Made by a program: the position numbers and the translations under genes. A DNA stretch of 64,000 nucleotides from Halorubrum sp. JWXQ-INN 858 (GTDB taxonomy: Archaea > Halobacteriota > Halobacteria > Halobacteriales > Haloferacaceae), in contig NZ_WUAX01000006.1 in assembly GCF_009806985.1 (NCBI RefSeq), forward strand, positions 60,184-124,183. The letters are read 5' to 3'. Below the pieces are notes generated by a model. The model did no database searches. It was not told the origin of the DNA and saw only the letters and a program-made list of their open reading frames with translations. Shown in pieces: positions 41,505 through 58,821 of the stretch. The stretch's first letter is position 1. Each line of letters starts with the position of its first letter.

Positions 41505-41524
41505 CAGGGTCGCCCTCGGCTGGG

Positions 41525-41659
41525 CGTTTATAAGCGGTTCGCGGTAGGGTGTTTATCAGCAGATCGCGGTGGGGAGTTTATAAGCGGAATTCGGTGGGTG
41601 CTTATAAACGGAGTTCGGTGGATCGTTTATAAGTGGGGCTCGGAGCTGCGTTTATAAAC
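41525..41659. repeat. Array of six TATA-like boxes at 25-bp spacing
   Basis: TTTATAAGC-type words begin at 41527, 41552, 41577, 41601, 41626 and 41651. The boxes vary little (one reads TTTATCAGC, two end AAAC, one ends AAGT), while the sequences between them, such as GGTTCGCGG and GGAATTCGG, differ more. Each box resembles a haloarchaeal promoter element. Confidence 0.9.
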
Positions 41660-41781
41660 GAAGCGTGGCGGGTGACTCGGTCCGGTGCGGGCGTTGGAGG
41701 GCGAACCGGGCGACGCGCTCTCGGCGGCGTCTGAGTGGCCACGGCACCGCGACCGCACCTCACGCCTCCCCAGCCTCGCCC

Positions 41782-41853
41782 CGCGGCCGCTTATAAGCGG
41801 CCGCGAGGCTCCCTCGCGCGCCGTTCGGGCCCAGCGGGCCCGAACGGGTGCGC
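41782..41853. other. Cluster of palindrome and hairpins
   Basis: A 24-bp palindrome is centred on TTATAA with CGCGGCCGC and GCGGCCGCG arms (41782-41805). It shares its right edge with a small hairpin CGCGAGG-CTC-CCTCGCG (41802-41818). A 12-bp-arm hairpin follows, CCGTTCGGGCCC-AGC-GGGCCCGAACGG (41821-41847), with partly complementary GCGC flanks. The function is unknown. Confidence 0.85.
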
Positions 41854-42063
41854 GCCGACCGCGGGTCGACGGCACACTTCGGACGCGCGGACTCCTGTCG
41901 TCGCTGTCGCCGTCGCTGTCGCGGTCACTGTTGCCGTCGCTGTCGCGGTCACTGTTGCCGTCGCCGTCGTGTCACCGTCGTCGGCTCCTGATGAGTACAC
42001 GCTCGAACGACGGCTCGCGTCGCGGAGCCGAGGATACAAATCGGGGGCCCGCCTTTCGCCGGT

Positions 42064-55481: not shown

Positions 55482-55556
55482 GGGCGCGTAGCTCAGCCAG
55501 GATAGAGCGTCGGACTTCTAATCCGATGGTCGTGGGTTCGAATCCCATCGCGCTCG
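55482..55556 (+). tRNA. tRNA-Arg (anticodon TCT)
   Basis: The 75-nt cloverleaf has a 7-bp acceptor stem GGGCGCG/CGCGCTC (one G-T pair), an anticodon stem CGGA with loop CTTCTAA (anticodon TCT), and T-arm GGGTTCGAATCCC-like sequence; no CCA is encoded. TTTTTAAGC at about 55450-55458 is its promoter. Its 3' end is immediately followed by AT-rich DNA, suggesting it is an integration site. Confidence 0.97.
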
Positions 55557-55557
55557 T
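55548..55557 (+). repeat. Left copy of 10-bp repeat at island boundary (candidate attL)
   Basis: TCGCGCTCGT covers the last nine bases of the tRNA-Arg gene plus one. The same ten bases recur at 57410, at the other edge of the AT-rich block. Confidence 0.5.
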
Positions 55558-55675
55558 GCTACAAATTATACTCGATTTTAATTATCTAGACGACCATATT
55601 TGGCCGCTGATTATGCATTGAACATGTTCTGAAACCATTTATTTAATTTAGATACGTTTATTCAAAGTTGATGAT

Positions 55676-55694
55676 TAGTAGTATCTATCTACTA
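55676..55694. promoter_or_regulatory. Inverted repeat upstream of the ATPase gene
   Basis: TAGTAG-TATCTAT-CTACTA lies about 70 bp before the start of the island gene, upstream of its TATA-like ATCTATAATG (about 55730-55739). It could be an operator. Confidence 0.4.
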
Positions 55695-55763
55695 TTGTCT
55701 AACATCAGAAAGTCATAATTTAATCGAAGAATCTATAATGTTGTTCAATCAAATAAGTCTCAA

Positions 55764-57035
55764 ATGCCGACACACACTTACAAGATTGATGAAGTGTTTG
55801 GTATGGCTAGGGGTATACCTGAGAATTATGTTCGTAGAGAGTATGTAGATAATGAATTAGAGAAAACACTCCATAGGAACAAACATGTTGTGATATATGG
55901 GGGCTCAAAACAGGGTAAAACCTGCCTTCGAAAGTCGTGTATTACTGAAGATAGTCAAATAGTTGTTCAGTGTAATAATAGATGGGATTTGGAAGATATT
56001 CACTCTGCAATCTTGAAGAAGTCTGGGTTTAAAATAACTAAATCTGAAAAGAGATCTATTTCTGGATCTCAAAAAATTACTGCAAAGATACGTTCTGGCC
56101 TATTAAGTGGCGGATCTGAAACTACAATATCCGGGCAAAAAGAAGTTCTTGAAGAAGGTTTAGAGCTTGATCCAGAAGACGTGAATGACGTTATTGACGC
56201 TTTAGATACGATCAGTTTCTCCAAGAAGATCGTACTCGAGGATTTTCATTATTTACCGGAAGATACGCAAGAAGATTTCTCTGTCGCACTAAAGGCATTT
56301 CACGAAACCTCTGATCTTAATTTTGTTATTGTTGGTGTTTGGTTAGAAGAAAACAAACTTATCGTTAAAAATGGAGATTTGACTGGCCGTGTTATTTCGG
56401 TGAATGCGGATAAGTGGACTTCTAATGATTTGGAAGATGTAATTAAGAAAGGTGCTGATTTATTGGATATTGAGTTCGATGCGAAATTCAAGAAAGAATT
56501 GATTAAAAATTGCCATGATAGCGTTTTCATCGTTCAGGAAGCTTGCCAAGAGGCCTGTCTTGAAGAAAATATACTTGACAGTAGTGGTCCTACAACAGTA
56601 GTCGGTACTGATCTAGATGCTAACGAAATAATCGCAGAGATTATTGATTCTCAGAAAGCAAGGTACGAATCCTTTATTCGAAACTTCTCTGATGGTTTCC
56701 AATCGACAGAATTAGAGATGTACAAATGGCTCCTATACCCTATCCTAACTGCGGACTCATCGGAGCTGGAAGAGGGACTTATTTATGGTGATATGAGGAA
56801 AAAGATCGAATCACAACATCCAGAGGGTACCAGTTTGAATCCTGGTAATCTGACCCAGTCTTTGCAGTCTACAGGCTCCCTTCAGGCAGATTTAGGGATA
56901 AAACCGTTTATTCTTGATTATGACAAAAGAAATAGTAAACTTTCTGTAGTTGATCGAGGATTTCTCATTTGGTCACAGACCGAAGATGAGGCTTCTCTCC
57001 TAGAGTACGCTGGGTTGGATACACAAATAGACTAG
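55764..57035 (+). CDS. AT-rich P-loop ATPase with C-terminal winged-helix-like region, unknown function
   Basis: The 423-residue protein has an N-terminal YKIDEVFGMARGIPENYVRR box, then Walker A GGSKQGKT (residues 46-53), Walker B-like KIVLEDFH (155-162), a sensor-type strand NFVIVGVWLEENKLI (186-200) and a helical lid region (about 220-270). The last 100 residues (MYKWLLYPILTAD to LSVVDRGFLIWSQ) look like a winged helix. The order, ATPase then DNA-binding-like wing, resembles Orc1/Cdc6, MNS-type and STAND ATPases; I cannot place it in a named family. It is the only gene on the island and lacks a visible effector domain, so it may be a defence, regulatory or replication protein. ATCTATAATG lies about 25 nt before the ATG. 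Confidence 0.7.
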   Translation: MPTHTYKIDEVFGMARGIPENYVRREYVDNELEKTLHRNKHVVIYGGSKQGKTCLRKSCITEDSQIVVQCNNRWDLEDIHSAILKKSGFKITKSEKRSISGSQKITAKIRSGLLSGGSETTISGQKEVLEEGLELDPEDVNDVIDALDTISFSKKIVLEDFHYLPEDTQEDFSVALKAFHETSDLNFVIVGVWLEENKLIVKNGDLTGRVISVNADKWTSNDLEDVIKKGADLLDIEFDAKFKKELIKNCHDSVFIVQEACQEACLEENILDSSGPTTVVGTDLDANEIIAEIIDSQKARYESFIRNFSDGFQSTELEMYKWLLYPILTADSSELEEGLIYGDMRKKIESQHPEGTSLNPGNLTQSLQSTGSLQADLGIKPFILDYDKRNSKLSVVDRGFLIWSQTEDEASLLEYAGLDTQID

Positions 57036-58093: not shown

Positions 58094-58178
58094 GCGGGGG
58101 TGGCTGAGCCTGGCCAAAAGCGGCGGACTTAAGATCCGCTCCTGTAGAGGTTCGAGGGTTCGAATCCCTTCCCCCGCA
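58094..58178 (+). tRNA. tRNA-Leu (anticodon TAA)
   Basis: The 85-nt gene has acceptor stem GCGGGGG/CCCCCGC, anticodon stem GCGGA/TCCGC with loop CTTAAGA (anticodon TAA), a long variable arm and T-arm GGGTTCGAATCCC, plus discriminator A and no CCA. Its T-arm to 3' end portion is repeated four more times downstream. No clear TATA box was identified within 40 nt upstream. Confidence 0.96.
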
Positions 58179-58639
58179 TACTGCCGCGAGCATTCTCGCG
58201 AGCGGCAGATCTCGGCTTAAAAGGGATTCGAATCAGGGAACGGAGCGTTGCGGAGCGACCGTGGTTCGAATCCCTTCCCCCGCATACTGCCGCGAGCATC
58301 CTCGCGAGCGGCAGATCCCGGCTTATAAGGGATTCGAATCAGGGAACGGAGCGTTGCGGAGCGACCGTGGTTCGAATCCCTTCCCCCGCATGCTGCCGCG
58401 AGCATTCTCGCGAGCGGCAGATCCCTGCTTAAAAGGGATTCGGATCAGAGAACGGAGCGTTGCGGAGTGACCGTGGTTCGAATCCCTTCCCCCGCATGCT
58501 GCCGCGAGCACCCTCGCGAGCGGCAGATCCCGGCTTAAAAGGGATTCTGACCCGGAAAGTCGCAGCCCGGACCCGTCCGTCGAAGACGCAACGGAAGCCC
58601 GTGAACGTCTTTTCAAGGTTCGAATCCCTTCCCCCGCAT
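58157..58639 (+). repeat. Five copies of the tRNA-Leu 3' end at 106, 106, 106 and 142 bp
   Basis: The 23-base stretch from GGTTCGAATCCC to CGCAT occurs at 58157 (in the tRNA), 58263, 58369, 58475 and 58617. The first three units of 106 bp are nearly identical and contain, after the tRNA-end box, a hairpin with CTGCCG/CGGCAG arms, a CGGCTTAAAAGG-type box, an inverted T-arm AGGGATTCGAATC, and GGAGCG direct repeats. The fourth unit keeps the start, but its second half differs. The fifth is degenerate after its hairpin. Confidence 0.95.
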
Positions 58640-58821
58640 ACTGCCGCGAACGTCCTCGCGAGCGACGGACATCGATAAGGGGACGACGGGTCGTCGATCG
58701 TCGCCATCGCCGTCGCGGTCCACGGAGCCGCCGCTTGGATGGGTTCGTGAGCGTTCGGCAACCGAAACGAGAAAGAACCGGAACACGGACGATACCGCCC
58801 GCGAACGGGCGTGGGGCCCGG
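58640..58821. other. Intergenic sequence between the tRNA-end array and L11
   Basis: After the last tRNA-end copy there is a degenerate hairpin (CTGCCGCGAACG...CGAGCGACGG) and then 150 bp with nothing recognised. Minus-strand open frames over this and the array are antisense shadows of tRNA-derived sequence. Confidence 0.5.

Follow-up and report, generated by a model that had tools for sequence, protein, structure and literature searches.

In Escherichia coli, the distal repeats behind the tRNA gene tyrT are 178 bp long, and each of them carries 19 bp of the tRNA 3' end. To our knowledge, inverted copies, interchangeable loop cores and tandem-G.A hairpins are not known from this system. A small RNA is reported to be released from the transcripts of tyrT and other tRNA operons in E. 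coli (PMC4986893). With regard to haloarchaea, 11 partial tRNAs are described in Haloferax gibbonsii LR2-5, several of which directly adjoin a full tRNA (PMC7921747), and partial tRNA remnants in Haloquadratum walsbyi are linked with prophages or integrative elements (PMC3119063). In the available parts of the two papers, these partial tRNAs are not said to have hairpins, inverted arms, arrays or shared cores. Moreover, archaeal mobile elements enter genomes mainly at tRNA genes.

The window analysed here is a stretch of 64,000 nt from Halorubrum sp. JWXQ-INN 858, in which a sequence-only reading had reported that the tail of tRNA-Leu(TAA) occurs in five copies, with box-to-box steps of 106, 106, 106 and 142 bp. 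This description was borne out by exact matches of the box, GGTTCGAATCCCTTCCCCCGCAT, starting at 58157, 58263, 58369, 58475 and 58617, and by Tandem Repeats Finder (TRF), which gave the array a period of 106, 3.7 copies, 95% matches and a score of 705, the top of 57 rows. The first description did not include the inverted T-arm copies and the two hairpins of each unit, which are listed here together with the boxes.

58094..58178, + strand: tRNA-Leu(TAA) gene, whose last 22 nt form box 1 (ARAGORN; Rfam RF00005, 56.3 bits)
58157..58179, + strand: box 1, comprising the T-arm, the acceptor 3' strand, the discriminator and one T; within the tRNA gene
58181..58208, + strand: H1 hairpin of unit 1, CTGCCGC-GAGC...GCGA-GCGGCAG (sequence, fold and GA-tip analysis)
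58221..58234, - strand: inverted T-arm copy of unit 1, AAGGGATTCGAATC (inverted repeats and fold)
58235..58262, + strand: loop2 of unit 1, AGGGAACGGAGCGTTGCGGAGCGACCGT, repeated at 58341-58368 and 58447-58474
58263..58285, + strand: box 2, exact copy
58287-58314, 58393-58420 and 58499-58526, + strand: H1 repeats of units 2-4
58327-58340 and 58433-58446, - strand: further inverted T-arm copies, with a degenerate one at 58539-58552
58369..58391, + strand: box 3, exact copy
58475..58497, + strand: box 4, exact copy
58553..58616, + strand: loop2 of unit 4, of another type, GTCGCAGCCCGGACCCGTCCGTCGAAGACGCAACGGAAGCCCGTGAACGTC
58617..58639, + strand: box 5, exact copy
58640..58668, + strand: degenerate H1 remnant past the last box (repeat family D2)

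The order of a unit is the tRNA 3' end, the GC-rich H1 hairpin, the inverted copy of the T-arm, the loop2 hairpin and the next copy of the tRNA 3' end, and the box pairs with the inverted copy downstream of it in predicted folds. The last step is 142 bp because unit 4 holds a different and longer loop2. In such arrays, forward and reverse tRNA 3' ends alternate around two kinds of hairpin, and the inverted copy behind other tRNAs or in other species may span the acceptor and even the trailer. The copy number in the window is as assembled, and a mere assembly artefact is unlikely because independent and closed genomes have such arrays. The open reading frames across the array extend through into its neighbours and look incidental. 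A ferredoxin-like gene with close named relatives in Halorubrum neighbours the array, and elsewhere in the window (55482-57035) a tRNA-Arg(TCT) is followed by AT-rich DNA with a 423-aa open reading frame, ATPase-like by eye, which is perhaps a small inserted element.

It had also been proposed that the box stays unchanged and the rest of the unit drifts, through selection, conversion or repeated use. The window alone does not bear out the contrast or its causes, as variable columns number 0 of 23 in the box and 8 of 83 outside it for three units (Fisher p=0.20), and the same comparison for four units gives p=0.05. Across the genus, both parts of the proposal stand, with 24 mismatches at 1166 box positions in 53 modules.

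A comparison of the tRNA-Leu locus among relatives, which the sequence-only reading had suggested, was made in 34 genomes of the genus. Modules behind tRNA-Leu(TAA) are common to nearly all Halorubrum, with variable copy number and two genomes without any array at this gene, and also occur in Haloferax, Halopenitus, Halobellus, Halogeometricum, Halegenticoccus, Halogranum, Halobaculum and Halostagnicola. A general pattern (inverted T-arm, 20-50 nt, T-arm) was found in all 39 Halorubrum genomes, the backwards control giving zero, and in 57 of 60 haloarchaeal genomes against 3 of 236 other genomes of the phylum; one of these three matches reads like a tRNA body. A tRNA lies just upstream in all of 20 pattern loci, except for L374, which was chosen for its tRNA and has no pattern match. 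Modules stand behind about 21 of the 46 tRNA genes in the closed genome G027 and behind about 8 of the 43 in the window's genome (counted in loci around tRNA matches). In the loci analysed, we counted 192 modules over 129 of 238 tRNA genes; the tRNAs of the arrays cover 24 anticodon classes, and the DNA between boxes is a hairpin module of 60-140 nt in nearly all of the 192. Most haloarchaea have arrays behind some of their tRNA genes, and the window array is, by sequence comparison, one example of an order-wide haloarchaeal feature. In L031, L034, L035 and L331, behind tRNA-Lys and tRNA-Gly, there are modules of a second type, in which antisense tips (CCACGCTCGCTTCGCTCGCGTGG) adjoin a box cut short at the T-loop (ATCCC plus acceptor).

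Copy number differs among genomes and neighbouring units can be identical, as in the tandem units after tRNA-Lys and tRNA-Glu of G027, which supports the earlier suggestion of tandem duplication as an origin. Since copy number changes readily in evolution and two Halorubrum genomes have no array behind tRNA-Leu(TAA), an essential role is not implied.

The repeated sequences follow the tRNA behind which they lie. Among the 192 modules, the box is identical to the resident tRNA in 116 and has one mismatch in 36, and boxes vary with the genus-specific tRNA sequence (e.g. AGTTCGAATCTCGTCCCCCGCA in Haloferax). Similarly, the inverted arms have, over 12 positions, 1.45 mismatches to their own tRNA; permuting the boxes among 29 classes raised this to 2.80, and none of 10000 permutations gave a value as low. 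In Haloferax prahovense (L168), the inverted arm is complementary without a mismatch over 25 bp, while its relatives (L187, L191 and L174) share an imperfect version; judged from these sequences, the perfect arm is likely the mark of template switching between arms.

On the other hand, the loop2 cores are not bound to one tRNA, since clustering placed the same loop2 types behind different tRNAs. One 46-nt core, which is not a simple repeat, occurs after Glu-TTC, Glu-CTC, Gly-GCC, Ser-GGA and Arg-CCG in G041, a member of another haloarchaeal family, mostly flanked by the direct and inverted copies proper to each tRNA. The loop2 of unit 4 behind tRNA-Leu in the window is the same core. Because loop2 is flanked by T-arm sequence common to all tRNAs, ordinary recombination could shift loops and leave the acceptor-specific part untouched. 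A structured insert of about 100 nt, common to the loop2 of tRNA-Gly(CCC) and tRNA-Ser(GGA) in G027 (L335 and L353), looks like a recent movement between loci.

The hairpins themselves appear to be constrained. Seventeen loop2 sequences of 44 nt align without gaps, and pairs form in 95.2% of cells, compared with 77.2% for shuffles and 27-38% for slid controls; 36 cells are compensatory, against 11.5 in shuffles. These sequences are related, so that the shuffle results, as well as the Wilcoxon results and the orientation counts given below, overstate independence. In a wider set, the outer stems show 35 combinations, with a paired score of 3.11 against a permutation maximum of 2.43. The tip of loop2 reads GA-NN-GNA-NN-GA, in which two base pairs covary, mostly around a GNA triloop, and the tandem G.A is invariant on both sides in all 17 sequences; loop2 also has a conserved asymmetric internal loop. 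As DNA, the sequence GCGAAGC is known to form an extraordinarily stable mini-hairpin.

The hairpins have a preferred strand. Those with a GA tip located 3' of tRNAs number 89 in the sense and 9 in the antisense orientation, and 73 and 1 in a second, overlapping set. The better-folding strand is that of the tRNA sense in 134:27 cases for H1 and 106:47 for loop2, and about 144 loop2 are oriented forward with only 2 flipped, counts that again come from related sequences. Among arm-box pairs G.T exceeds A.C (69:38), whereas the loop2 palindromes, by a crude centre method, give the opposite (11:42). Covariation, the invariant tip and the strand bias together favour selection on one strand, most simply as RNA, and thereby the functional array that was among the origins first named. 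The strand bias could instead reflect the polarity of unit formation or inheritance. GA tips stand behind 16 of 28 module-bearing tRNAs and are nearly absent after module-less ones (1 of 60), so a general haloarchaeal terminator hairpin was rejected as an explanation. A term-seq study of Haloferax reports hairpins upstream of some termination sites, and the available part of it describes no GA-tip motif (PMC7237163). In Rfam searches, only tRNA reached the gathering score over the window array, and the module loci gave no hairpin family; one sot0042 match lay away from the arrays.

Among described systems, the repeat RNA of tyrT (RtT) is the closest parallel known to us, as both are tandem repeats behind a tRNA gene and each unit carries the tRNA 3' end. 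The difference is that the haloarchaeal arrays stand at many tRNA genes per genome and across a whole order, and RF00391 (RtT) had no match in the window's genome under a positive E. coli control. Integron attC sites share with the arrays a repeated site, imperfect inverted arms, a variable central loop, adjacent copies and strand polarity, but the haloarchaeal arms follow the host tRNA, the loops fall in recurring families and the units (106 and 142 bp) are too short for cassette genes. PATEs, SMRs and MITEs are likewise short, non-coding and palindromic; they are dispersed and have their own termini, whereas the arrays are tRNA-bound and their arms are local tRNA sequence. The partial tRNAs of H. 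gibbonsii may be the same feature as the arrays. Our literature search in open-licence papers yielded no description of such arrays, and the sequence-only reading likewise knew of none in haloarchaea; the order-wide tRNA-tail hairpin arrays are apparently undescribed.

How did these arrays arise? We are inclined, with slightly better than even confidence, to explain them as a whole as haloarchaeal fold-back hairpin elements that are anchored to tRNA 3' ends, tandem-expanded, re-matched in their arms and selected as RNA in their hairpins. The unit order, the tRNA-following copies, the interchangeable loop2, the covarying sense-strand hairpins and the variable copy number, on which this explanation builds, are properties of the DNA itself. 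The sequence-only reading had placed stacked attachment sites among its candidates, that is, scars left at the tRNA 3' end where elements were repeatedly integrated by tyrosine recombinases and lost again. A box running from the T-arm to the 3' end is indeed shaped like a tRNA attachment core, the 3' ends of tRNAs are preferred by archaeal integrases (PMC8371274) and mobile genetic elements (MGEs) do enter haloarchaeal tRNAs; nevertheless, this origin found no support and we regard it as very improbable. Archaeal tyrosine-recombinase attachment sites share with the arrays a direct repeat of the tRNA 3' end (PMC8371274), but the array repeat bounds a hairpin of about 100 bp, has inverted copies, which stacked sites leave unexplained, and comes with neither element nor integrase; in every genome, the DNA between boxes takes the form of a constrained module of two hairpins and not of element remnants. 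In G016, tRNA-Gly(TCC) is separated from its array by an 8-kb integrase-bearing element (L331, 338-8900). The attR of this element duplicates the tRNA sequence from the anticodon region through to its end, and two intact modules come after it, so that in this one MGE the attachment core is longer than the box and the array, displaced downstream, is spared and persists beside a true attR. Together with a tRNA-Lys module in G061 that is 5 kb away from its tRNA, this case indicates that true integrations deal with the array as flanking host DNA. The nearest match to PF00589, a general integrase model not specific to intI, stands at C1:193808 on the window's contig, about 75 kb from the array (C1:118340-118822), so that no integron integrase was found by this model within that distance either. 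The array sequence had no match in phage and plasmid DNA collections, and the only viral contig with the exact 22-bp box carries it as the tail of what seems to be another tRNA.

A mobile hairpin element that targets the T-loop, by single-strand transposition or cassette-like site-specific recombination, with loop2 as payload and the inverted T-arm as part of the recognition hairpin, would account for the single loop core behind five tRNAs in G041 and its presence in another family, for the fixed orientation to the tRNA with rare flips, and for the related hairpins in dispersed repeats described below. PATEs, IS605-type elements and SMRs are moreover abundant in Haloquadratum (PMC3119063). We nevertheless hold such an element to be unlikely, because the arms fit the resident tRNA and not a common element end, the analysis turned up neither an encoded enzyme nor a linked transposase nor a target duplication, and exchange through the shared T-arm explains the spread equally well. 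The labile copy number, the homogenisation of units, the arm correction in Haloferax, which resembles template switching, and the two Halorubrum genomes without the array would also suit a functionless by-product of tandem duplication and quasi-palindrome mutation at tRNA 3' ends. This seems quite improbable to us in view of the invariant tandem G.A within covarying stems (17 of 17), the conserved asymmetric internal loop and the strong strand bias, since palindromes under drift would be expected to approach complete pairing in either strand.

For the anchored fold-back elements selected as RNA, which we prefer, the following course may be imagined. Copies would multiply by unequal exchange, and template switching between arms, of which H. 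prahovense offers one likely case, would restore the match of the inverted arms to the tRNA; template switching or conversion would also keep the arms matched. Recombination in the common T-arm sequence would transfer loop2 among tRNA genes. RNA polymerase running past the tRNA would produce a trailer folding as a chain of hairpins, and this trailer may affect tRNA 3' processing or termination, or be freed as a small RNA like RtT of E. coli; because such a read-through trailer would fold and act in one of these ways, its hairpins could be selected as RNA. An RNA function of the tRNA-tail hairpins is probable, as far as sequence evidence goes. The arrays matter as a conserved, covarying hairpin system on the tRNA tails of a whole archaeal order, which is unmodelled by Rfam and was at most noted as 'partial tRNAs'. 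If transcribed, they would constitute a large tRNA-linked RNA family that is testable in Haloferax volcanii; if not, they would provide a natural system for studies of palindrome correction, tandem expansion and inter-locus exchange at tRNA genes. For annotators, a haloarchaeal partial tRNA adjoining a full tRNA need not be an integration scar.

Finally, a covariance model of loop2 matched 26 of 28 haloarchaeal genomes and 0 of 119 others. In three closed genomes, each of the 26 best matches closely follows a tRNA and has its orientation, which is partly a consequence of the training set, made up of tRNA-tail loops. Weaker matches revealed a dispersed multi-hairpin repeat of about 300 nt in Halorubrum, located away from tRNAs, with the motifs CGAGGCTGGGGAGGYGTGAGG...TTCCCGCGAGCGAAGCGAGCGGGAGCACGGAAGTCGCAGCCC...GGGACTCAAAGGGGCAG...GGCTGGGGCTTTGG and covarying hairpins. 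It has the same internal loop and GA tip as loop2 of the tRNA tails, had no Rfam match and is present in some two dozen copies in the three closed genomes, as judged from model matches. The GA tip occurs in this repeat and a few other loci, and the idea that it is exclusive to tRNA tails was dropped. A broader reading, which we put forward tentatively and with some doubt, is that a hairpin class with a tandem-G.A/GNA-triloop tip and an internal loop of the GTCGCAGC/ACCGTC type colonises haloarchaeal tRNA 3' ends with the host tRNA 3' sequence as its arms, spreads between tRNA genes and functions either as small RNAs linked to tRNAs or as the substrate of a dedicated protein, being order-wide and previously undescribed. 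If so, the dispersed repeat of Halorubrum would belong to the same system. Its loci are as follows.

L404-L409, L411-L413, L416 and L417: dispersed-repeat loci
41750-41860 of the window, - strand: trace of the dispersed repeat

Adjoining this trace, tandem repeats of about 25 bp resembling TTTATAAGC (TATA-box-like) are found at 41522-41633 of the window.
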